The notes beneath the pieces were generated by a model. The model was not told the origin of the DNA and did not search any database. It saw nothing but the letters and a program-made list of their open reading frames with translations. A DNA stretch of 64,000 bases from Azoarcus sp. Aa7 (GTDB lineage: Bacteria; Pseudomonadota; Gammaproteobacteria; Burkholderiales; Rhodocyclaceae): NCBI RefSeq assembly GCF_014822185.1, contig NZ_QVLR01000078.1:52386-116385 (forward strand), read 5' to 3'. Of this stretch, positions 24,157 through 36,059 are shown in pieces; the first letter of the stretch is position 1, and every line of letters starts with the position of its first letter. The translations under genes and the position numbers were made by a program.

Positions 24157-24602
24157 AGCTTCGACCAGTTCCCGGCGATTAGCTGTTCACGTCGGTCGGC
24201 AAGCTGCGCAGCAACGAAGGCGTCTGAGGGCCGTTGCTGCTCGAGGCTCATCGTATGGGTGACGCCGAGCACTTCGGCCTTGGCGACTCGGTCCGCTTGC
24301 GCCTCCAGTGTCTCCTGCAGGGACTGCCGCGGTACGAGGCCATACACCAGTTCGCAGTCCAACGCAGCGGCGAGCTTGCGCAACTGGGCGACGGTAATGC
24401 GCTCCTCTGCCTCAGCCTTCTCGGCCTTATGCAGCGTCGGCCCGGCAATGCCGGCTCGGAGCGCTTGCTGTCGGACAGTCAGCCCCAATGCGGTACGAAT
24501 TGCCTGGAGCCACCCGCCCGGGGGCGCTTTCTTTCCACGGAGGGGTTCGAACGAGGCAAGCATTCTGCTCGTCTGTTCAAGGCGGAGTTTTTGCGTATCC
24601 AT
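24147..24602 (-). CDS. Mobile mystery protein A (HTH regulator, partner of Fic protein)
   Basis: 151 residues, ATG at 24602 (MDTQKLRLEQ). XRE-type helix-turn-helix about residues 30-85 (GGWLQAIRTALGLTVRQQAL, then GPTLHKAEKAEAEERITVAQ). The family is always found just upstream of the Fic-domain mobile mystery protein B, as here. Likely DNA-binding autorepressor and functional antitoxin; two copies of a 35-bp palindromic site sit just upstream. Confidence 0.88.
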   Translation of the reverse strand: MDTQKLRLEQTSRMLASFEPLRGKKAPPGGWLQAIRTALGLTVRQQALRAGIAGPTLHKAEKAEAEERITVAQLRKLAAALDCELVYGLVPRQSLQETLEAQADRVAKAEVLGVTHTMSLEQQRPSDAFVAAQLADRREQLIAGNWSKLWR

Positions 24603-24625
24603 CGAACACATCCGTTGCAAGGGAG

Positions 24626-24726
24626 GCTAACAATTGACGTTAATATGTTAGCTCATATGGCAACGGTTATACATGTATAGTTTCACTATAGGCTAACATC
24701 TGAACGTTATGTGTTAGCTTATATGG
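24626..24726 (-). promoter_or_regulatory. Tandem palindromic operator upstream of mobile mystery A
   Basis: Two 35-bp direct copies (24626-24660 and 24692-24726), each built on the inverted repeat GCTAACA ... TGTTAGC with a central ACGTTA and followed by T(C/T)ATATGG. Between them is the perfect 12-bp palindrome TATACATGTATA (24668-24679). The region is AT-rich in contrast to its surroundings and lies 24 nt upstream of the start codon. Probably the binding sites for the HTH protein; promoter elements are not certain. Confidence 0.7.
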
Positions 24727-24754
24727 AAACAAAGTCGCCAGCCGAGACTGCTGG

Positions 24755-24792
24755 GTTTCTCCTACGGACCCCTTGTCATCGACGGGTGATGC
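24755..24792 (-). repeat. Degenerate terminal CRISPR repeat
   Basis: A 38-nt stretch that begins GTTTC and ends GGGTGATGC like the array repeat but has about ten differences in between. It is separated from the first perfect repeat by a 34-nt spacer, so it is the trailer-end repeat; decay here fits minus-strand transcription of the array. Confidence 0.85.
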
Positions 24793-24826
24793 GCATGTTC
24801 AGGATCTCGACCGAGTGCGCGAGGAT

Positions 24827-26297
24827 GTTTCAATCCACACCCCTCGTCACCGAGGGGTGATGCCCGCTGTTGCGGCTGCGCGTCGAGACGCTGCGACTGT
24901 TTCAATCCACACCCCTCGTCACCGAGGGGTGATGCGAATTTGTGCGCACGACTTACCTGCGCGCTGCCATTGTTTCAATCCACACCCCTCGTCACCGAGG
25001 GGTGATGCCGCGAGCCGCGCACCGAACGCCCGAAGGCCGAAAGGTTTCAATCCACACCCCTCGTCACCGAGGGGTGATGCAAAGACGTGACCAAGCGCAT
25101 CGACAGCATGATCGAGTTTCAATCCACACCCCTCGTCACCGAGGGGTGATGCCCCGCGGTGCGATGGCGGACCGTCACGGGCTGGCCGTTTCAATCCACA
25201 CCCCTCGTCACCGAGGGGTGATGCGCAATCTTGCGGGAGGCGTTCCGCCTGTTCTGCGACGTTTCAATCCACACCCCTCGTCACCGAGGGGTGATGCGCT
25301 CGGCATCACCGGCATGCAGCGCCAGATGCCCAAGTTTCAATCCACACCCCTCGTCACCGAGGGGTGATGCCGGATTCCCGCAAGCGGTGCGCCGCTGCTA
25401 CGTCGTTTCAATCCACACCCCTCGTCACCGAGGGGTGATGCGTCATTGGCATAGATGCCAGTATCGACGACGGTCGTTTCAATCCACACCCCTCGTCACC
25501 GAGGGGTGATGCCGTGATTGGGGGTGGGATGCGATCAATCACACCTGGTTTCAATCCACACCCCTCGTCACCGAGGGGTGATGCATGGCTGCAGGCGTAC
25601 CGCGACAGCGGCCAAGTCGTTTCAATCCACACCCCTCGTCACCGAGGGGTGATGCCGTGCTGCCGGGGCTGGTGAAGCGCCGCCAGGCTGTTTCAATCCA
25701 CACCCCTCGTCACCGAGGGGTGATGCGCGATCTACACCCGGTTCAGCACCGACCGCCAACGCGTTTCAATCCACACCCCTCGTCACCGAGGGGTGATGCG
25801 GTAGCGCGAGGCGTACATTACCGCCGCACACAGGTTTCAATCCACACCCCTCGTCACCGAGGGGTGATGCGCAGGGTGAGCTCGCGAGGCGCGTCCTCAC
25901 CCTTGTTTCAATCCACACCCCTCGTCACCGAGGGGTGATGCAGAGTTGAGTCGAGCCGGATGTAAGCTCGCCGAAGTTTCAATCCACACCCCTCGTCACC
26001 GAGGGGTGATGCTTCTGCTGCGGGTTCGAGCGCCGCGGGGCTGGGCGTTTCAATCCACACCCCTCGTCACCGAGGGGTGATGCATGGCTGGCACGTCAGG
26101 CTCGCGTGACGCTGATGGTTTCAATCCACACCCCTCGTCACCGAGGGGTGATGCGGCATCTTCCGCAACCTCTCCGGCGAGCACGTCACGTTTCAATCCA
26201 CACCCCTCGTCACCGAGGGGTGATGCACTGGCGCAATCCGCACCGGCGCATCCCGATCGCGTTTCAATCCACACCCCTCGTCACCGAGGGGTGATGC
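24827..26297 (-). CRISPR. Type I-C CRISPR array, 21 perfect 37-nt repeats
   Basis: 21 copies of one 37-nt repeat (plus strand begins GTTTCAATCCAC and ends GGGGTGATGC) with no differences that I can see, spaced by 34-36 nt unique spacers: 20 between them and one more before the degenerate repeat at 24755. In the transcribed sense (minus strand) the repeat ends in GTGGATTGAAAC, the usual type I-C crRNA handle, and carries a perfect 9-bp stem CACCCCTCG with a TCAC loop for Cas5 processing. Leader and cas2 are at the high-coordinate end, so the newest spacers are near 26260. Confidence 0.98.
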
Positions 26298-26484
26298 TCT
26301 TCGCACGTAATACATTGATTCGCCGACGAGTCACGGACGCGTTGCGCGAACGTGCGTGCGAAGGAGTCCGTCGGTTCGATTTGATAACGTGAATCCAGAT
26401 GGAAAGATAATAAAAGCAAGCGGTTACAGAACGCGCGAACCGGTCGCTGGATGGGCGCTTACTCAGGGTTCGCGCAACCGTATC
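26298..26484 (-). promoter_or_regulatory. CRISPR leader
   Basis: 187 nt between the cas2 stop and the first repeat, with an AT-rich core (GATAATAAAAGC, 26406-26417) unlike the GC-rich surroundings. Expected to hold the array promoter and the integration site for new spacers. I cannot place the -35/-10 with certainty. Confidence 0.75.
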
Positions 26485-26784
26485 CTACAACACCAGGGGG
26501 CCGTCGAAATCCGTTGCGCGGAAAGTTCCATGTTCGCGAACTTCTGCGCCTCGGCTGTCCGGAAGGCGATACAGGCGGAGATTGTCTTGGGTGAGATCGA
26601 CCTCGGCGAGCAGGCGTCGTTCGAGCTCCTCGAACTGCATCAAATTTATCTGGAACTCGAAAACCGATTTCTGGACGCGCTGGCCGACCCCTTCGCAGAC
26701 TTTTGCCACGCGCCGCAGGCGTCGCCGGCCGGCTGCTGTTTCGGTATTCACGTCGTAGCAGACAATTACCAGCATGGCCGTCAT
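26485..26784 (-). CDS. cas2: CRISPR-associated endoribonuclease-fold Cas2
   Basis: 99 residues (95 if the second ATG is used). Begins [20 protein letters not shown], with the conserved Asp after the first strand, then [20 protein letters not shown], typical of type I-C Cas2. Forms the spacer-integration complex with Cas1. The start overlaps the cas1 stop by 4 nt (ATGA). Confidence 0.97.
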
Positions 26785-27809
26785 TTCATGAGGAACGGGA
26801 GGTAGGTGTCCATTTCGCCGCGCAGCGTCCGGGCCATCAGGCGGGCCTGCACGAGGGGCGCCAGGCCGAGCGGAATGGCCTGCGCGAGCAGCGGATGGGT
26901 GAGCTCTTCCTGCTTGCGCTCCTGCCAGGCGACGACCACCGCCTTGCGGGCGTCGCCTTCGAGGAGCACGGCGCCGCCTTCGCGCTCGACGAAGTTGCCG
27001 CCTGCGATCTGGCCGCGATTGATGAGGGTGAGCGCGAGGCGGTCGGCAACCCAGCGGAATTCCTCCATGAGGTCGAGCGCGAGTGCGGCGCGACCCGGGC
27101 GCAGGGCGTGCAGGAAGCCGACCTGGGCGTCGAGTCCGGCCGCTTCGACCGCCGAGCGGCAGTCGTTCATCAGCATGGAATACAGGAAGGACAGCAGCGC
27201 GTTCATGCGGTCGCGGGGCGGGCGGCGGCTGCGGCCATCCATCTGGAACGCGGGGCGGGCGTCGTCGCGCACGAGCAGGTTTAGGGCGGCGAAATACTGC
27301 CGGGCGGCTTCTCCTTCGATACCGCGCAAGGCGTCGTGATCGGCGGCGCCGGGCACGCCACGCAAGGCCGCGGCGAGATCATCCGCCGCCTTGGCGATGC
27401 GTGCGGACTCCTCCTCCTTGCGGGCTTCGCGCGCACCGCGCAGCAGCACCTGGCGCGCGTTGCGGATCTTGCCGGCGACGCAGCTGCGCGCGAAGCCGAG
27501 CGAGAATGCGGCGTCGTCGCTGCGGAGGTGCTGGGCGCGGCGCAACAGCACGTTGCCCGACACGGGGCCTTCCAGCCGGGCCTTGAAGCGCCCGTGCGAA
27601 TCGAGCAGCACCAGCCCGATGCCGTCGTTGGCGAGCCGGTGCATCAGAGGCGTCGATAGCATCACGTTGCCGAGACACACGACACCGCCGATATGGTGCA
27701 GCGGCACGCGCAGCCGCGTCTCGCGCTCGACTTCGACGCGCAGCGTGTCGTTATCGAGATGGACATAGCTTTCCGGGGTGGTGACATAGAGCGTGTTGAG
27801 CAGTTGCAT
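26781..27809 (-). CDS. cas1: CRISPR integrase Cas1 (type I-C)
   Basis: 342 residues from the ATG at 27809, 2 nt after the cas4 stop. The type I-C N-terminus ([20 protein letters not shown]) is followed by the metal ligands in order: [11 protein letters not shown] (Glu), [11 protein letters not shown] (His) and LDLMEEFR (Glu/Asp). Catalyses spacer integration at the leader end with Cas2; Cas4 selects PAM-bearing prespacers. Confidence 0.98.
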
Positions 27810-27811
27810 GG

Positions 27812-28444
27812 TCAGGCGTCCGGGTCGAAGAGGTGGCGGGCGAGGGCGGTCTGCACGTCCTGCGCGGCGAGTGCGCCGGGCTGGCACAGGTCGCGCAGGG
27901 AGCAGGCGTGGCAGCGTTCGTCGTTGACCGGCGGCGGCGTGTGTCCGGAGGCGAGCATGGTGCGGATGGCGCTTGCGGCCGCAGCGACTTCGGCGCGCAA
28001 TTCCGGCGTGATCGGCACGACGCGGCGGCGTTTCGAGCTAGCGTAGAACAGGGCACCTTCCGGCACCGGCCGGCCGGTCATTTCTTCCAGGCACAAGGCC
28101 TGCCCGGCGAGCTGCAGGTCGTCGCAGGCGGCGATCGAGGCCTTCTTGTTGCGCGTGCCATGCTTGTATTCGACGGGGTAGGGCGTGCCGTCGGGGAGGA
28201 ACTCCACGACGTCGGCCTTGCCTATCAGACCGAGGCGGTCGCTGAACACCGGCAGGGCGCGCTCGACGCGCAGGCCGGCGCGTACTTCCATGCCGGGCTG
28301 GTCCGCCCGTGCATGCACTGCCTGACCGCGCAGCGTGTGGATGTTGTCCTCGAAGGCCTGCTCCAGATGGATCAGGGCGCACTGGCGCGGGCAGTAGCGC
28401 CAGTGTTGTAGGGCAGAGAGCGGGATGAGGTCGGCAGTGTCCAT
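27812..28444 (-). CDS. cas4: Cas4 exonuclease, Fe-S
   Basis: 210 residues. The first cluster Cys is in YCPRQC near residue 18 and the C-terminal set in ERCHACSLRDLC, forming a [4Fe-4S] site. The RecB-type nuclease core shows GKADVVEF and PVEYKHG with the QL(A)GQAL helix. Trims prespacers and defines PAM in adaptation. It is separated from cas7 by 585 nt that hold an oppositely oriented toxin-antitoxin pair, so it needs either read-through or its own promoter within 28445-28498. Confidence 0.97.
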   Translation of the reverse strand: MDTADLIPLSALQHWRYCPRQCALIHLEQAFEDNIHTLRGQAVHARADQPGMEVRAGLRVERALPVFSDRLGLIGKADVVEFLPDGTPYPVEYKHGTRNKKASIAACDDLQLAGQALCLEEMTGRPVPEGALFYASSKRRRVVPITPELRAEVAAAASAIRTMLASGHTPPPVNDERCHACSLRDLCQPGALAAQDVQTALARHLFDPDA

Positions 28445-28498
28445 GACGGCTGCGGCTCCAGACGCTAAACTGAAACGGTTCTTGCGATGAGATCAACC

Positions 28499-28735
28499 AT
28501 GTCCGCTACCCTCGAATCCGTCATGGCCGAGGCCATGAAACTGACGCCCGACGAACGGGCGGATCTGATCGAAACCCTGATTGCCAGCGCCGAGCCCGCG
28601 ACCCGTCTGCATCCCGCATGGGAGGCCGAAATCGGCCGGCGCCTGGACGATCTGGAGGCGGGGCGTACCGAGGCCGTTCCTGCCGATGAGGTGTTTGCGC
28701 GGATCGAGGCAGAGCTGAAGCGGGCCGGCGCGTGA
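28499..28735 (+). CDS. Addiction-module antitoxin embedded in the cas operon
   Basis: 78 residues from ATG 28499 (ATG 28487 adds four). SVMAEAMKLTPDERADLIET matches the family of putative addiction module components that precede RelE/ParE toxins; the C-terminus (ARIEAELKRAG) is the toxin-binding type. Encoded opposite to the cas genes, diverging from cas4 with a gap of only 54 nt. Overlaps the toxin by 4 nt (GTGA). Confidence 0.82.
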   Translation: MSATLESVMAEAMKLTPDERADLIETLIASAEPATRLHPAWEAEIGRRLDDLEAGRTEAVPADEVFARIEAELKRAGA

Positions 28736-29022
28736 AGCTGCGCATCCTGCGGGCGGCGGAAGCCGATATCGATCACGCCATCGACTACTACCGCGACATC
28801 GCCGGCCCCGGTGTCGCCGCCGAGTTCTATCGCGAGTTCCGGCGCGTCGCACGTACAGTGCAGGAGCGGCCGGGCCTCGGGCACGCCGTGGGGCGGAGTG
28901 TCCGGGCCTTCGGGCTGCGGCGCTTTCCGTTCGATCTCGTCTATCGGGCTGACGCCGACGCGGTGACGATTGTGGCGGTGGCGCATCATCGGCGCGAGCC
29001 GGCGTATTGGCGGAGGCGCTGA
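28732..29022 (+). CDS. RelE/ParE-family toxin embedded in the cas operon
   Basis: 96 residues, GTG start within the antitoxin stop. KLRILRAAEADIDHAIDYYR, PGLGHAVGRSVRAFGLRRFP and a final AVAHHRREPAYWRRR are typical of RelE/ParE toxins (mRNA interferase or gyrase poison; which one cannot be told). It ends 7 nt from the convergent cas7 stop, so the pair fits tightly into the gap between cas7 and cas4. Confidence 0.87.
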   Translation: MKLRILRAAEADIDHAIDYYRDIAGPGVAAEFYREFRRVARTVQERPGLGHAVGRSVRAFGLRRFPFDLVYRADADAVTIVAVAHHRREPAYWRRR

Positions 29023-29029
29023 GCCGCGC

Positions 29030-29917
29030 TCAGCCGACCTTGCGCAGCAGCGTGACGCCGGACGGCAGCGCCTCCTCATTCACCGTGACGGTGTAGTCGG
29101 CGAAATTGCGGGCGACATCGACGTCGTCCTTCTTCCTCACCGCGATCCGGTCGAACAGCGCGTGGGCGTGGGCGTTGCCCAGCGCCGAATCGTGCTTGAA
29201 CACGTACAGGCCGCGGGTTGCCATTTCGCCACGGGCGGCCGAGCGGTCGTGCTCGAACATGTTTTCGAGCGATTGCCATAACAGCTCGAGATCGTCTTCC
29301 GAGAAGCCGGTTTGCTTGGCGAGGAAGGCCGATACGAAGCCGTGGGCGACGTAGATCCCATATGGGACGGTGTGCTTGCGGCCCATCGTGCGGTTGTCGC
29401 CTTGCTGTTTTGCGGCTTCGGCCTCCGTTGCAACAGCCATGCGGGTGATGGAGTGCTCCAGCGCGACGATCGGGTCGACCGAGCGCGCGAAGGTGAGCTG
29501 CACCGGGCCGCGCACCTGACCGCAGTTGACTCCGGTGGACATGACGGCGCCAAAGCTGCGGACGTCGTAGAAGTTGCGGCACATCCACGCCCGGGCCTTG
29601 TCGACGGTGTCGCCGCTGCCCTTGCGTTTCTTGTCATCCCCCTTCAGTTCATCACCTGCGCCGACTGCGAAGTACGCACGCTCGTGAGTCTGGTTCAGGA
29701 TGGCTTTTTCCTTGACGTAGATCTCGAATGGCGGTTGTTCGCCTTTGACCAGTCCGACGAAGTTGCGCACCTTGCGCTTGAGGGAAACGTCGGTCACCAG
29801 CCCGTGACCGGATTCGGCATCCAGACGCGGCAGGTTGCCGGCGTCGGGGTCGCCGTTGGGGTTGCCGTCGCGTACGTCGAAAACGAGGACGAAGTCGTAG
29901 CGGTTGTCGAGGCTCAT
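29030..29917 (-). CDS. cas7: Cas7 backbone subunit (Csd2, type I-C)
   Basis: 295 residues. The N-terminus [20 protein letters not shown] and later [20 protein letters not shown] are the Csd2 signatures. Six or more copies line the crRNA in Cascade. The gene starts 4 nt after the cas8c stop; an antisense toxin gene follows. Confidence 0.98.
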
Positions 29918-29921
29918 GGTG

Positions 29922-30302
29922 TCAGTTTCCTTCGGGGGTCGATTGCGGTTGATCGTCGGCGTTCCTGGTGAAGAAGGCCTGGCGCTGGTGGTAGTAGCCC
30001 AGCGCGAAGCGGCCCTGATCGGGCAGGGGCAGGTGTTTGGGGAAGTCGGAGACGGCGCCGAGCACGTCCCCCAGCAGCTTCTCGAACCACACCACGCGCC
30101 CGGTAACGAGCTTCTTCAGGTGCGCGTTCTTCAGCCGCAGCAGGGTCGTGAAGACCGCAACCGGCGTGCTGGATGCCGCGCCGTAATAGCGGTCGCGGAT
30201 GGTCGCGTTGATCCCCGGACTGGCTTCTTCCTGGATCTTTTCGAGCACTGCGAACAGGCGGCCGAGGCGGTAGGCGGTGTTCGGGTTGCTGGGGTCGAGC
30301 AT
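29922..30302 (-). CDS. cas11c: Cas11c small subunit from internal start within cas8c
   Basis: In-frame internal ATG (Cas8c residue 457, [20 protein letters not shown]) preceded by a strong GAGAAGGAG with 9 nt spacing, giving 126 residues (about 14 kDa). Type I-C systems are known to make a separate small subunit from the 3' end of cas8c; position, size and RBS fit. This is a prediction from the RBS and from the family, not direct proof. Confidence 0.82.
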
Positions 30303-31670
30303 GGGGCGAAACTCCTTCTCGGTGGCATTGGATGGGCGGTGGCGGAGCTGACGGTTCAGGCACGCCTTGATGGAAGCGGCGCGCAGATAGGTGACACGTT
30401 GTTCCGCGCGGCAGCGCTGCACGGCTGCGTTGAGCCAGGTCGCGGGGAAGGGCGAGCCGTCGAGAATGCTGCGCATCACCTCGCCCCCCAGCTTCGGCGG
30501 GATGTTGTCGGCCTTGCCCTGCACGGCAATCGCGGTAAGCAGGCGGAACAGGCTCGGGTATTCCGGTTCGCCGGGGCCGTGGGCGATGTCGATCTCGCTG
30601 AACCAGGCGCTGATCCGGTGCGCGATGTCCCGCAGACGGCCGGTGTGCCAGAAACGCACGGCGATGCGCGCCGCGTTGGGCGCGAGACTCAGGACGTGGA
30701 ACGCGTTGTCGCCGCGGGCGCCGGCGAAGCGCCCGCTGTGCACAGCGTCGAGCAAGGCGCGGATCTCTTCGGTGCGCGCGTCGGGGTCGTCGCCGTCACC
30801 AAAGAAGTCGGCGAACACGTCTTCGACCGGATCGGCCTTCTGCGCCCAGAACACCGTCGAGGCATCACCGACCTGCAGGCGCTGGCGCGAGCCGCGCGCG
30901 AGCAGGTGGTTGAGGGCTGTGGTGTAGGCGAAGGCGGCCGGGCGGCCGACCGGCGCATTGTTTCCTTGGGTCTTGCCGAAGGAGTTGAACGCATCGAGGT
31001 TGAAGGAAACGATGTTGGCCCCCGAGGTCTGTGCGCCCCATACGCCCTTGATCGCGCTGTGTAGGCGTTCGGGTGTGGCCGGTTCGCCGGTTACGAGGCA
31101 GATGGCGGTTTCGGCCGGCTCGGCGGCAGGGTCGTCGGCGATGCCGGTGCTGGCGACTGCTGGACGCTGACAGACGAGATCGGTGTCTCCCGTCAGACGG
31201 AAGCTGACCAGCGGGTTGATTTCGCGCAGTTCGGGCGTGCAGGACAAGCCGGCGATCTGCGTGAGCGGCTCGGAATCGAGGAAGGCGAGTACCGCGCGAA
31301 CGCCCGTGTCCTCTCGCGCTTCTACGGGCAGGGCGTCGATGCGGGCGCGGAAGGCGGCGTGCTGCTGTGCGACGCGTTCGGGCTTGCCCTTGGTGTCCAG
31401 CCCCAGCGCGTATTCTGCAGTGTCCCACAGCAGGTTCGCGGCGACACCGGAGGTCTTCTTCACGCCCTGCGGGACGAGGTATTTCGCACCGGTCTTCTTC
31501 TTGCCCTCGCCGCTGCGGGTGTCCTTGATCGCCGTGAGTCGGCCATCGGCATCGAGTTCGACGACGAAGGCGATCTCCTTGTCCTCGAAACCGAAGGCGG
31601 GCAGGCGGTGCGCGGGATCGGGGTCGGCCATCTTGCGCCGGTAGTAGTCGTTGAGCGCCTGGAGGATCAT
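29922..31670 (-). CDS. cas8c: Cas8c large subunit (Csd1, type I-C)
   Basis: 582 residues. The start ATG at 31670 overlaps the cas5 stop as ATGA. Opens [18 protein letters not shown]; later [20 protein letters not shown] and [15 protein letters not shown], all typical of Csd1/Cas8c. It recognises the PAM (TTC in characterised type I-C systems) and starts the R-loop. The C-terminal part is also translated separately (see cas11c). Confidence 0.97.
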
Positions 31671-32332
31671 CCCCGGACCTCCACCTGTTCGAGGTCCAGC
31701 ACGCCGCGTGTGACCCGGGCGCGGAAGAACTTGGGGCGGGGATCGTCCGTGCGCGCGAAGTCGAGGTCGTAGAGCATCCAGCCGAGATCGCCGTCCACGC
31801 TGGCCTCGGGGGGCGGTTCGGCGGCGGGGTCGGTGACCAGGCGGAAGCGGGCGGCGAATTCCCGACAGCCGAGATAGGGCTGATTCACGCACTGCCCCTT
31901 TTCGGCGCGGCGGGCAAACATTTCGGCGTACTTGGTCAGCGTGTCATTGGGTGCGCGTGAGGGCAGAAATTCGAGATCGGCATGGAGGCGGTAGGCGACG
32001 TCGCGCAGGAACAGGCCGGCGCGCTGCTGGCGGTCGTCTTCGACGTACAGGCCGAGCTGCCCGCGGCCTTCGTTCATCGCCGCGATGACGTTCCGGGTGG
32101 AGACCACGGAAGCGACTTCGTTGCGCCGCACGCTGATCCAGCGCACCGGCCGCAACACCTCGATGCGCCGCATGTGCCAGCGGACCGCGGGTTTCCACAG
32201 GATGCTCTCGAACACGGCGCGTGCCGCCGACGGCGTGATGAGATCGTAGGACACGCGCTCGACCTTCATCTCGGGGCGCGTGTAGCAGGCGAAGTCGCCT
32301 GAGACTTCGAGGCAGAAACGTCTGGCTGTCAT
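31667..32332 (-). CDS. cas5c: Cas5c (Cas5d), pre-crRNA endoribonuclease
   Basis: 221 residues; ATG with GGAGGACA just upstream. CLEVSGDFACYTRPEMKVER and VSYDLITPSAARAVFESILW are the type I-C Cas5 signatures. This subtype lacks Cas6; Cas5 cuts the repeat hairpin and caps the crRNA 5' handle. It follows the 44-residue microprotein by 9 nt and overlaps cas8c by 4 nt. Confidence 0.98.
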   Translation of the reverse strand: MTARRFCLEVSGDFACYTRPEMKVERVSYDLITPSAARAVFESILWKPAVRWHMRRIEVLRPVRWISVRRNEVASVVSTRNVIAAMNEGRGQLGLYVEDDRQQRAGLFLRDVAYRLHADLEFLPSRAPNDTLTKYAEMFARRAEKGQCVNQPYLGCREFAARFRLVTDPAAEPPPEASVDGDLGWMLYDLDFARTDDPRPKFFRARVTRGVLDLEQVEVRG

Positions 32333-32341
32333 TGTCCTCCC

Positions 32342-32476
32342 CTATTTTTTCAGCACATAACTCAGCACGACGATGAGTGAGAGCAGGTAGAGCGCGTAAA
32401 AGCGAGCAGGTTGTAACTGGATGGCCAGCAGGCGTAGTTCGCGCAGGATTCCTTTCCAATCGATGTTCCAGCCCAT
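32342..32476 (-). CDS. 44-residue single-TM microprotein heading the Cascade operon
   Basis: ATG at 32476 with GGAAG 8 nt upstream. An N-terminal amphipathic part (MGWNIDWKGILRELRLLAI) is followed by one membrane helix, ARFYALYLLSLIVVLSYVL, ending Lys-Lys. Size and layout resemble small hydrophobic type I toxins, but no family is recognised. The stop codon lies 9 nt before the cas5 ATG, with the cas5 RBS in the gap, so the two must be co-transcribed. A TTG at 32536 would add 20 residues but has no RBS. The promoter region upstream is the predicted target of the crRNA-like RNA. Confidence 0.65.
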   Translation of the reverse strand: MGWNIDWKGILRELRLLAIQLQPARFYALYLLSLIVVLSYVLKK

Positions 32477-32520
32477 AGCCGTTGCTTCCGAAAACCAGAT
32501 GGGCGGAACTGTATCATTAG

Positions 32521-32549
32521 ATTCTAAGAGGAACAAACTAGACTATAAG
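32521..32549. promoter_or_regulatory. Cascade-operon promoter region and predicted target of the crRNA-like guide
   Basis: TTC at 32522-32524 (type I-C PAM) is followed by 22 nt (32525-32546) that match the first 22 nt of the pseudo-spacer at 32608 at 18 positions; mismatches at 6, 11, 16 and 18. The site overlaps candidate divergent promoters: minus strand CTTATA - 17 nt - TAGAAT (-10 at 32526-32521, start about 38 nt before the microprotein ATG) and plus strand TTCTAA - 16 nt - TATAAG (-10 at 32544-32549, towards the guide RNA). The -35 boxes are weak. Strongly AT-rich compared with its surroundings. Confidence 0.72.
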
Positions 32550-32569
32550 AAATACAAACAAAACTCTGC

Positions 32570-32663
32570 CATACTCCCCTCTCGTCCGACAAGACGTGGA
32601 TTGAAACTAAGACGAACCAACTCGTCTATGCAGCAAGAAAAGGCGGGGTCTTAGGACCCCGCC
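32570..32663 (+). ncRNA. crRNA-like guide RNA (CreR/CreA type), antisense to the cas genes
   Basis: Pseudo-repeat 32570-32607: keeps the CCCCTC arm start and, exactly, the 12-nt 3' end GTGGATTGAAAC of the array repeat, the part that becomes the crRNA 5' handle. Pseudo-spacer 32608-32641 is 34 nt, the same length as array spacers. It is followed by a 9-bp GC hairpin (32642-32663) in the place of a second repeat. The seed matches a PAM-flanked site in the adjacent promoter (32522-32546) with partial complementarity, as known CreA/CreR guides do to allow binding without cleavage. Transcription on the plus strand is inferred from orientation. Confidence 0.75.
32636..32663 (-). terminator. Rho-independent terminator after cas3
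   Basis: Perfect 9-bp stem GGCGGGGTC / GACCCCGCC (32642-32650 with 32655-32663) with loop TTAG; on the minus strand it is followed by TTTTCTT. It starts 11 nt after the cas3 stop, so cas3 appears transcriptionally separated from the microprotein-cas5-cas8c-cas7 unit. On the plus strand the same hairpin closes the crRNA-like RNA. Confidence 0.85.
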
Positions 32664-32673
32664 TCCCCGTGCG

Positions 32674-35001
32674 TCAAACAATCAATTGCGCGGGATCGCC
32701 GGGCGCTCCTTCGACATTCGTGCCCAATACATCGTCGTAGAAAGTATCCGCAACCTGCACATACAGGCCGGGGAATCCGCCTAGCTCCCGGATATCACCC
32801 TGAGTCAACAAGCGGGCGACGTCGTGCCGATAGATCGATACGCCGTAGCGCTGCAGCTTACGCATCAGCCAGCGCTCGGGGCCGTCGCGTTCGAGCATTG
32901 CAGTCCATTGGTCGACGACATGGCTGTCGCCCGCCGGGTAACGCACGATCACGGTGGCGGCTTCCTCGTCGTCGATGAGGCGGAAGGCGTCGGCGGCGTC
33001 GCGGAAGCGGACGTCGGCGTCGCGACCGACGCGCAGCATCTCGCAGATCCCGCGGGCGTCCAGATCCGCGTCGCCATAGAGCTGCCGGAAGTACGCCGGG
33101 AAGAGGCCGAGCTCCAGCGGGTCGCTTTCGATCCGGTGCCAGACTTTCCGGCAGGTGTCGCGTGCCTGGCGCAACAGACCGGGCGGCGGTTCGCTGGGCG
33201 GGACGAACACATGCACCTCGCCGAGTCCGTCGAGTTCGCCTTCGCGGTTGCAACGCCCGCCGGCCTGTGCGATCGAATCGAGCCCGGCCAGCGCACGGAA
33301 GACCACCGGAAAGCTCATATCGACCCCGGCTTCCACGAGCTGCGTGCTGACAACGCACACCGGCGTGGCCGGCGCGCCAAGCGCGAGGGCTTCGCTGCGG
33401 GCGGCCAGCGCGGCCTTGATGTGGGCGATCGTGTCGCTGCGATGTTGCGGACACATCAGCGCGGAGAGATGCCAAAGGCCGGTCGTGCCGTGCGTCTTGA
33501 GCAAACGATGCAGCTCGCGGGCGTCGCCGCGGCGGTTCACGATGGCGAGCACGGCGTCATGTCGCGCGATGTCCTGCGCGATCTCCGGCCACTCGCGCCG
33601 GGCATCGAGACTGGCGGGAACATGAACCCGTATGCGCTTGAGGGCGGCGTAGAGCGCGGGGACGTCGTCGATGATCTCGGCGACTTCACCGGCGGAGAAT
33701 CCGCGCAGGCCGCGTCGCGGATCGAAGCTTGTTGCCGAACTCAGTGCGGGCTGGGTGGCGGTGCAGAGCACCAGCGTGACGCCGTAGTCGCTTACGAGCA
33801 GGCGCAGGACGTCGAGGATGGGCTGCAGGAACCCGACGGGCAGCAACTGTGCTTCGTCGAGCACGATGACGCTGCCGACGAGGCTGTGCAGTTTGCGGCA
33901 GCGCGACGTGCGGCGGGCGAACAGGCTTTCGAAGAGCTGCACATTGGTCGTGACGATGAGCGGCGCATCCCAGTTCTCGCAGGCGAGCCGTGAGCGTGCG
34001 GTTTCCAGTGTGGCGTCCGCGTCCGCATTGCTGTGATGTTCGACGACGTTTTCGTCGCCGAAGATTGTGCGAAAGATATCGGCCGTCTGCTCGATGATGC
34101 TCGTGTAGGGAATCGCGTAGATCACGCGTCGCTTGCCATGCGCGACGGCATGGTGCAGCGCGAAGGCGAGGCTGGACAGGGTCTTGCCGCCGCCGGTGGG
34201 GACGGTGAGCGTGAATACGCCGGGGGAGAGGGCCGCCTTTGCGCGGCATTGTGCGAGGACGTCGGCGCGCAGCGTATTCACCGGTGTGTTGCGGGCGTTG
34301 GCTGCGAGCGTCGTCATGTGTGCATCGAAACGCGCCAGCAAAGTCCTTAAAACCTCTTCTGGCTCGGTCGGCTGCACCCGTGTCGCTGCCTTGTCCGGGG
34401 CCATGAAGGTCTCGGTGTCGAGGAAATCCGCATCGACGAGGCAGGAGAACAGCATGCGGACCCACAACGCGAAGCTGCCGGCCCCATTGCGCGTGTCGAC
34501 CGGCATCCCGCGCGGGTCGGGTAGCACGCCGCGCGGTTCGAGGATCGCCGCCGGTGGCACCGCGCCCAGACAGTCTTCGAGTTCGCGGCGCGCATCGTTG
34601 CCACCCAGGCGCACCTTGAGGCCGTCATGCCAGTTGTCGAGGCCGGCATGGTGTCCGGCGATGAGGTACGCGAGCACGCGGGAGACGATGCGTCCGGGTT
34701 GTCCCTGGCGTGCGACCAGATGGCTCTCCGCCCATAGCGCGCCGGCGGCCGAATGGGTCTTGTTCGAACTGCTCACCCGGCCTTCGATGTGGGCGTCGGC
34801 GCACGCCCGGATATATTCCTGGAAACCCGGCCGATATTTGCCAAGGTCATGCCACAGGCCGGCAATACATGCCCAGTCGGTGGCACCGAAAGCTCCTGCG
34901 AACGAGGCTGCGATTTCGGAGACGCGGTTCAGATGCTCGCCAAGCTCATGCTCCCGCCGGCTCCCGTCCGGGTTTGACGCCGTATGTGCCAGGTGGATCA
35001 A
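32674..35001 (-). CDS. cas3: Cas3 helicase-nuclease (HD-DExH)
   Basis: 775 residues, TTG start at 35001 with GGAG 8 nt upstream. HD nuclease first: HLNRVSEIAA and LWHDLGKYRPGFQ (HD motif), SAAGALWAESHL; then helicase motifs TVPTGGGKTLSS (Walker A), VLDEAQLLP (DEAx box), LVLCTATQPAL, and VVSTQLVEAGVDMSFPV with QAGGRCNREG (motifs V and VI). Recruited by Cascade to degrade the target strand. First cas gene, 74 nt downstream of the WYL regulator. Confidence 0.98.
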   Translation of the reverse strand: MIHLAHTASNPDGSRREHELGEHLNRVSEIAASFAGAFGATDWACIAGLWHDLGKYRPGFQEYIRACADAHIEGRVSSSNKTHSAAGALWAESHLVARQGQPGRIVSRVLAYLIAGHHAGLDNWHDGLKVRLGGNDARRELEDCLGAVPPAAILEPRGVLPDPRGMPVDTRNGAGSFALWVRMLFSCLVDADFLDTETFMAPDKAATRVQPTEPEEVLRTLLARFDAHMTTLAANARNTPVNTLRADVLAQCRAKAALSPGVFTLTVPTGGGKTLSSLAFALHHAVAHGKRRVIYAIPYTSIIEQTADIFRTIFGDENVVEHHSNADADATLETARSRLACENWDAPLIVTTNVQLFESLFARRTSRCRKLHSLVGSVIVLDEAQLLPVGFLQPILDVLRLLVSDYGVTLVLCTATQPALSSATSFDPRRGLRGFSAGEVAEIIDDVPALYAALKRIRVHVPASLDARREWPEIAQDIARHDAVLAIVNRRGDARELHRLLKTHGTTGLWHLSALMCPQHRSDTIAHIKAALAARSEALALGAPATPVCVVSTQLVEAGVDMSFPVVFRALAGLDSIAQAGGRCNREGELDGLGEVHVFVPPSEPPPGLLRQARDTCRKVWHRIESDPLELGLFPAYFRQLYGDADLDARGICEMLRVGRDADVRFRDAADAFRLIDDEEAATVIVRYPAGDSHVVDQWTAMLERDGPERWLMRKLQRYGVSIYRHDVARLLTQGDIRELGGFPGLYVQVADTFYDDVLGTNVEGAPGDPAQLIV

Positions 35002-35075: not shown

Positions 35076-36059
35076 TCAAGCGCGGTCCGAATATTTGTTA
35101 GCCAGTTCCAGGGCCTCCTCCGCCACCACCCGCCGCAACCCCTCCGGCCCCAGCACCTCGCAATGCGTCCCGTGCTTCAGCACATCCATCATCAGTTCCC
35201 GGTGATCCGCATACGGCACTTCCAGCACGTAGCTGCCGTCGGCCTCGAATTCCCCTTTCTGCTGCGGATGCCAGTGCTCCGTCGCGACCCAGCGGGCGCG
35301 TTCCGGGCTGAAGCGCAGTCGTGCCCATTGCAGCGTGCTGCCGGCGAAGATGCCGTAGCCGGGGCCGAGGACGGTGTCCAGGGTCTGGTTGGAGACGTCC
35401 TTGGCGGCGGTTTCGAGCAGTTCGACCTGGCGGATGCTGTCGATGGCGAAGTTGCGCAGCGCGCCGCGCAGGTGGCTCCAGGCGTCGAGGTACCAGTTCT
35501 CCCGATAGTGAACGAGGCGTTGCGGCGAGACTTCGCGGGTGGTTTCCTCACCGCGCCCGCGGGAGTAGTAACGGATCGCGAGGCGCTTGCGGCGCAGCAG
35601 CGCGGAGCCGATGTTCTCGAAGTGGGCGAGCTTCATGCTGCGCTTGCCGATACCGACGATCAGCACGCGGCGGCGGACTTCGTCGGCGGTGTTTTCGGCG
35701 CTGCCGAGCAGCTTGTTGAGGCGCGCGACGAGCGGCTGCACGTGCGGGGCGAGGATGCCGCCGGGATCGAGGTTGGCGAGCAGGTGCTGCATCGTCAGCA
35801 GCGCGTGGATCTCCTTGTCGGAGAACCACAGGCCGGGCAGTTCGTATTGCGCGCCGCGGGTCTGTCCGGGATCGAGGTGGTAGCCGCCGAGTTCGCGGTC
35901 CCACGCGATGGGGATGTTCATGGCGTCGCGCAGGAAGGCGATGTCGCGCTTGAGGGTGGCGGGCGAGACCTCGAGCGTTTCCAGCAGCATTTGGCGGCTC
36001 ACCGACCGCCGTTCGTCGAGGAGTTTGCGGATGCGGATGATGCGGTCGGTCTGGCTCAC
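35076..36059 (-). CDS. WYL-domain transcriptional regulator next to cas3
   Basis: 327 residues. N-terminal winged HTH (RIRKLLDERRSVSRQMLLET, then ATLKRDIAFLRD), central WYL domain (LAIRYYSRGRGEETTREVSP, QRLVHYRENWYLDAW) and C-terminal WCX region (FSPERARWVATEHWHP). This YafY-like family often regulates CRISPR and other defence loci by sensing nucleic acid or nucleotide ligands. The position immediately upstream of cas3, same strand, supports a role for the cas genes. Confidence 0.92.
   Translation of the reverse strand: MSQTDRIIRIRKLLDERRSVSRQMLLETLEVSPATLKRDIAFLRDAMNIPIAWDRELGGYHLDPGQTRGAQYELPGLWFSDKEIHALLTMQHLLANLDPGGILAPHVQPLVARLNKLLGSAENTADEVRRRVLIVGIGKRSMKLAHFENIGSALLRRKRLAIRYYSRGRGEETTREVSPQRLVHYRENWYLDAWSHLRGALRNFAIDSIRQVELLETAAKDVSNQTLDTVLGPGYGIFAGSTLQWARLRFSPERARWVATEHWHPQQKGEFEADGSYVLEVPYADHRELMMDVLKHGTHCEVLGPEGLRRVVAEEALELANKYSDRA

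Follow-up and report, generated by a model that had tools for sequence, protein, structure and literature searches.

A CreR-like guide gene in a type I-C CRISPR locus of Azoarcus sp. Aa7 likely directs Cascade to the predicted promoter of its own operon

Introduction

The closest described counterparts of the element studied here are the CreR RNAs. In the available portions of two papers (PMC13131331 and PMC12737573), CreR is described as a crRNA-like gene located with the cas genes; its RNA shows partial complementarity to a cas promoter, and a function in Cas autorepression has been proposed for it. The distribution of CreR is given as types I-B, I-E and V-A in the available portion of PMC13131331, and as type I and V-A in that of PMC12737573, in which the term I-C does not appear. 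In CrePA, which is outlined in the same portion of PMC12737573, a protein-coding gene of the CRISPR locus would be under repression by the guide. CreA, the guide of the CreTA module, pairs through positions 1-5 and 7-11 with a promoter site flanked by TTC, and there is a one-repeat form with a terminator at its end (PMC8501985, available portion). Finally, the phage RNA anti-CRISPR Racr is a solitary repeat mimic, according to the available portion of PMC10651486.

We analyzed a stretch of DNA of 64,000 nucleotides from Azoarcus sp. Aa7 (hereafter referred to as the window), in which positions are counted from the first letter. The window contains a locus of type I-C, a compact type I system that is used for editing and silencing. 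Between cas3 and cas5c, this locus carries an element that is probably a CreR-like guide of type I-C, a crRNA-like gene that would hold Cascade on the predicted promoter of its own operon. Like CreR, the element is a crRNA-like gene within a cas locus, its degenerate repeat keeps the 5' handle, and its guide has a limited, seed-centered and PAM-adjacent match upstream of the cas genes, as observed in 29 of the 35 loci found here to contain such a handle. Unlike CreR, it belongs to type I-C, has a Cas5c-type handle and consists of one repeat mimic followed by a 3' hairpin; the window element is divergent from its target, and a membrane microprotein is often encoded between the target and cas5c. 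As in CreA, to the extent covered by the available description, the guide of the element pairs at positions 1-5 and 7-11 with a TTC-flanked site, but CreA guards an RNA toxin, whereas here the target is followed by the cas operon, with a protein toxin as no more than a possibility. The element differs from CrePA in that its microprotein has no known toxicity and is missing from eight of 29 loci. It resembles Racr, as partially described, in being a solitary repeat mimic, but it lies in a host cas locus, it has a self target, and no similar phage DNA was found among 50,697 records. No such element was found for type I-C among the titles and abstract beginnings listed in searches of the open-licence literature; the survey by Shmakov et al. 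(2023) may include I-C. As CreR is a kind already known from types I-B, I-E and V-A, the novelty, to judge from the readable literature, lies in the subtype and the architecture.

Results and Discussion

Type I-C locus and solitary handle

The genes of the locus are arranged on the minus strand in the order WYL regulator, cas3, microprotein, cas5c, cas8c, cas7c, cas4, cas1, cas2 and array, with the element in the gap that separates cas3 from the microprotein gene, on the plus strand. The assignment to type I-C made in an initial annotation of this DNA was confirmed by matches to profile models for Cas3c (32674-35001), Cas5c (31667-32332), Cas8c (29922-31670, with a start at about 31670) and Cas7c (29030-29917), all encoded on the minus strand, and by the presence of cas4, cas1, cas2 and an array with matching repeats. 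This array, at 24827-26297 (minus strand), contains 21 repeats with the same handle, and its repeat, in the crRNA sense, is GCATCACCCCTCGGTGACGAGGGGTGTGGATTGAAAC (trimmed by one base).

The crRNA-handle 12-mer GTGGATTGAAAC is present at 32596-32607 on the plus strand. All the other copies in the 5.39-Mb genome, 21 in number, belong to the array (minus strand, 24827-26272). No solitary copy arose by chance in 100 shuffles of the window. The 11-nt 5' handle TGGATTGAAAC (32597-32607, plus strand) is identical to the end of the array repeat and is followed, on the same strand, by a 34-nt guide, or pseudo-spacer (32608-32641). The bases and coordinates previously attributed to the handle, guide, TTC and target were all found in place. 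The interval 32570-32607 had also been described as a decayed repeat; this reading holds for 32583-32607, which is repeat-like, but not for 32567-32575, which is better read as a putative extended -10 of the guide gene (TGC-CATACT, plus strand), recognized by eye and negative in a sigma-70 consensus scan. The 5' half of the repeat is decayed. A stem-loop abutting the handle (CGTC-CGACAA-GACG, 32583-32596, plus strand; p=0.010, 200 shuffles) is the predicted Cas5c processing stem, and its sequence differs from that of the array-repeat stem.

A 10-bp GC hairpin lies 3' of the guide (32641-32664, plus strand). It was scored on neither strand by the terminator scan, and it lacks a T-run in the guide direction, which counts against our main reading. 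Its T-run is on the minus strand only, on the cas3 side, and it is therefore at least as likely to be the cas3 terminator as the 3' end of the guide. When folded alone, 32580-32668 exceeded its shuffles in stability (z -4.38), with the 3' hairpin as the main contributor. In the minimum-energy fold, the guide pairs with itself over 6 bp, which could mask the seed and argues against its exposure, unless Cascade opens the fold.

Two other identities were considered for the element and rejected. It is not a known Rfam RNA, as a search of 24500-33000 gave no match at the element; the array repeats matched CRISPR-DR9 in this search, below the gathering score. Nor is it likely to be borne by a phage or plasmid, as similar DNA was absent from the phage records cited above and from plasmid collections, and the element sits inside the host cas cluster rather than on a phage or mobile element.

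Self target flanked by TTC

The guide matches a self target at 32525-32546 (plus strand), which directly follows a TTC PAM (32522-32524, plus strand). The match of 18 out of 22 positions previously noted for this pair was recomputed with the same result, the mismatches being at guide positions 6, 11, 16 and 18. None of 3000 dinucleotide-preserving shuffles of the gap reached 18 matches (best TTC site, 16), and the highest value in 1000 dinucleotide shuffles of the 1.8-kb region was 15. Elsewhere in the window, no TTC site has more than 12 matches. The genome was also searched for TTC followed by the target pattern, with N in place of the four mismatched bases and a tolerance of up to three mismatches, and the sole hits were the target and the element. 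A chance match was rejected on the basis of these shuffles, together with the uniqueness of the pattern within three mismatches.

Handle, seed and PAM in related loci

We retrieved 165 loci by cas5c similarity, from genome searches contributing up to 30 places each, in which five places of one search and nine of another yielded no locus, and with the named genomes limited to the best 80 of 588. The sample is consequently thin for distant type I-C lineages. Two loci without upstream DNA (L112 and L113) and eight duplicates were dropped, leaving 155 non-redundant loci. Earlier scans were smaller, with 138 loci (TTT seed matches), 132 non-redundant loci and 26 elements (stem and hairpin scans). 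Solitary handles were sought within 700 nt upstream of cas5c, and the seed was defined as guide positions 1-5 and 7-11.

A solitary handle was found upstream of cas5c in 35 of the 155 loci sampled. The other 120 have no such element, and this counts against our main reading. A TTC-flanked target in the same locus, with a seed match of at least 8/10, was identified for 29 of the 35 handles, and 27 had at least 9/10, whereas the cross-locus null (5390 comparisons) gave seed values of at least 9 in 0.15% of cases and at least 8 in 1.2%. The expected co-variation of handle, seed and PAM in relatives was thus borne out. Six of the 35 handles lack a good TTC target, which also counts against it: in L021 and L115, a full 10/10 seed match follows TTT rather than TTC, the L023 guide has a six-base match only, and an own-locus TTC seed match was looked for in L050, L161 and L162, with none found. 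When the PAM was left free in the 29 handle loci of the earlier scan of 132 non-redundant loci, 22 had a best match of at least 14/22, preceded by TTC in 17, TTT in one (L115) and other triplets in four (L009, L023, L079 and L126). Over 11 nt, the handle was compared with that of its own array in 20 loci, after trimming by eye of the over-extended array consensus, and was identical in 11, with one change in six and two changes in three.

Methyloversatilis thermotolerans 3T (L127) is among the named sources of these handles, as are metagenome-assembled genomes assigned to Thiobacillus (L061), Cellvibrionaceae (L134), Entotheonella (L106), Polarisedimenticolaceae (L123) and Nitrospira (L115, with TTT). 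We take these named sources to span several phyla.

Target geometry and predicted promoter

The PAM is oriented towards the cas genes in 22 of the 29 loci with a seed match, and a -10-like hexamer is present no more than 22 nt beyond the PAM, on the cas side, in 17 of these 22 loci, versus 48% of shuffles, a moderate excess. The target is on the cas strand in seven of the 29 loci, which counts against a common arrangement: the geometry is not uniform. In the window, a putative extended -10 of the cas operon promoter (TG-A-TACAGT) lies at 32508-32516 on the minus strand; this assignment draws on the hexamer excess in relatives. Consensus scans of 32440-32720 for promoters and terminators found none and, given the negative result of the strict scan, the cas promoter remains a prediction. 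With a -10 at 32516-32508, the target would cover the -35 region.

The gap to the upstream gene exceeds 60 nt in 32 of the 35 handle loci; of the remaining three, L048 and L153 have no measurable upstream gene and L162 has a gap of -13. By contrast, the gap is 60 nt or less in 109 of the 120 loci without a handle. The wide gap in one set and the narrow gap in the other indicate that the element accompanies a break in the cas3-cas5c operon.

In L106 and L115, upstream of cas5c, a TTGACA hexamer is closely followed by the target, which in turn immediately precedes the handle of its own guide (accompanied by a stem in L115), such that the guide would repress its own transcription.

Membrane microprotein

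The first gene of the predicted operon (32342-32476, minus strand), recognized as an ORF and from its relatives, encodes a 44-aa single-pass membrane microprotein. Searches of the Pfam and PADLOC families yielded no match to this protein, and no toxin family was matched; four homologues were present in the protein database, none of them named. Between the target and cas5c, 21 of the 29 seed-match loci encode a small, hydrophobic protein of the single-pass type, with a motif resembling a ribosome site. No such protein was found in the 120 handle-less loci, 109 of which have no room for it and were left out of the examination. By the same criteria, it is missing from the other eight seed-match loci (L019, L045, L106, L130, L134, L142, L146 and L153). 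At least two kinds of microprotein, unrelated to each other, were distinguished. The first is characterized by a motif like DWKGxxRExRLLxxQLPxxRF, and a different kind precedes the elements on the cas5c strand. The first kind was detected in six of 300 genomes of the order, corresponding to five element loci and L187, in which no CRISPR genes were recognized by eye in 3 kb.

Small single-pass proteins are a usual form of toxins in toxin-antitoxin pairs, and the microprotein may have a toxin or guard role. The presence of a membrane protein with a ribosome site in 21 of 29 loci, against 0 of 120 without a handle (109 of them without room), would be consistent with an addiction module resembling CreTA or CrePA, in which the guide would serve mainly as an antitoxin against the microprotein (or an RNA toxin), the cas genes being carried along, and a block of Cascade would release a membrane-active peptide. 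We nevertheless consider such a module quite unlikely to account for the element: eight loci keep the guide and target without a microprotein, the microproteins belong to at least two unrelated kinds, the L187 homologue has no CRISPR genes recognizable within the 3 kb inspected, and no toxin family was matched. Given these eight loci, repression of the Cascade operon is the common denominator.

In L020 and L021, at about 75-90 nt upstream of cas5c, the handle encodes the last residues of the microprotein, WIET, so the same stretch is both coding sequence and guide handle.

R-loop signature and conservation of the stem

The mismatch profile was established for 21 independent pairs of guide and target with at least 14/22 matches, chosen without positional weighting. 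Mismatches were found at 1 of 105 sites for guide positions 1-5, 10 of 21 for position 6, 8 of 105 for positions 7-11, 14 of 21 for position 12 and 3 of 42 for positions 13-14, rising to 12 of 42 for positions 15-16, 10 of 21 for position 17 and 14 of 21 for position 18. Beyond position 18, 10 to 19 of the 21 pairs were mismatched at each position, around the 75% that unrelated sequence would give; pairing fades after about 16-18 nt. Positions 6 and 12 taken together were mismatched in 24 of 42 cases, versus 12 of 252 for the rest of positions 1-14 (Fisher p=1.8e-15). Every sixth base is flipped out in the Cascade duplex, and the concentration of mismatches at positions 6 and 12 appears, as expected, to match that of a Cascade R-loop. 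In the window pair, the mismatches at 6 and 18 fit this profile, but another is at 11 rather than 12, which counts against it.

Co-variation was apparent between two related loci, L066 and L140, whose microproteins differ by two residues over 37. Within the first 17 positions, their guides differ at 3, 10, 12 and 16; the targets changed with the guides at positions 3 and 16, and position 12 is unpaired in both. Broken pairs, at position 10 in L140 and position 7 in L066, count against strict co-variation.

Cas5c is expected to cut at a stem just before the handle. Stem tests were performed on 26 elements, with 200 mononucleotide shuffles per locus. A stem of 4-7 pairs directly preceding the handle was found in 12 of the 16 divergent elements (p<=0.025), in 11 different sequences. 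Nine of the 10 elements on the cas5c strand have no stem before the handle, with L115 the sole exception, which counts against our main reading. A downstream hairpin was present in all 26 elements, starting 20-35 nt past the handle in 25 of them, a count made without a shuffled control.

These patterns bear on the possibility that the element is the now functionless relic of a decayed mini-array, with a spacer derived from the nearby promoter. The decayed 5' half of the repeat and the near-random pairing beyond about 18 nt would both be compatible with a relic, but decay would not spare positions 1-5 (1/105 mismatches) while freeing positions 6 and 12, and the stems kept in 11 different sequences, in 12 of 16 divergent elements, and the co-changes of L066 and L140 argue in the same direction, making a relic very improbable. 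Even less credible is the reading of the two similar stretches as a direct-repeat operator, bound by a protein such as the WYL-domain regulator encoded beside cas3 (35076-36059), with an incidental handle, since the handle follows its own array in most loci, the solitary 12-mer exceeds chance (0/100 window shuffles), the second copy is flanked by TTC with mismatches clustered at positions 6 and 12, and guide and target vary between loci, unlike the sites of one protein family.

Proposed autorepression of the Cascade operon

The reading that we favor, that of a CreR-like guide, is based on sequence comparisons, and on these grounds the guide most likely autorepresses the Cascade operon. The crRNA-like gene (32567-32664, plus strand) would yield a short guide RNA that Cas5c would cut at the stem just before the handle and that would be loaded onto type I-C Cascade. 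Cascade bearing this guide would cover the -35 region of the predicted microprotein-cas5c-cas8c-cas7 promoter, blocking RNA polymerase, and the pairing would be too short for Cas3 action, so that Cascade would be held in place without cutting. In the known CreA and CreR RNAs, pairing of about 16-18 nt goes with repression and not with cutting. Cascade would limit its own supply through this feedback, and the operon would be relieved by Cascade loss, by saturation with array crRNAs or by an anti-CRISPR block, with cas3, upstream of the element, predicted to remain outside the repressed transcript. The target lies just upstream of the putative -10 of the guide gene, so the loop may limit the guide too. 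Given that guide and target change together across relatives, the immune complex likely uses the guide against its own production.

A broader proposal, which we put forward tentatively and consider rather unlikely, is that one self-aimed guide in type I-C systems of several phyla combines CreR with a CrePA-like guard in a single operon, such that, when Cascade is blocked, the same promoter would refill Cascade and release a membrane microprotein to arrest the infected cell. The link with the microprotein makes this guard hypothesis testable.

If about one fifth of type I-C loci (35 of the 155 sampled) restrain their own Cascade, then loci would vary in Cascade supply and in their response to anti-CRISPRs, in a manner predictable from sequence. 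The natural guide-target pairs would also reveal which R-loop positions are under selection, with freedom at 6 and 12 and pairing up to about 16-18 nt, a read-out relevant to the extent of pairing at which binding occurs without cutting.

Neighboring genes

Other genes were noted in and around the cas cluster. The WYL-domain regulator (35076-36059, minus strand) adjoins cas3 and is a possible second control of the locus. Beside this regulator is a HEPN and nucleotidyltransferase pair (PF05168 and PF01909; 36157-36886, minus strand). A type II toxin-antitoxin-like pair, with Unstab_antitox (PF09720) and ParE_toxin (PF05016) domains, lies within the cas cluster at 28487-29022, between cas7 and cas4, on the opposite (plus) strand.
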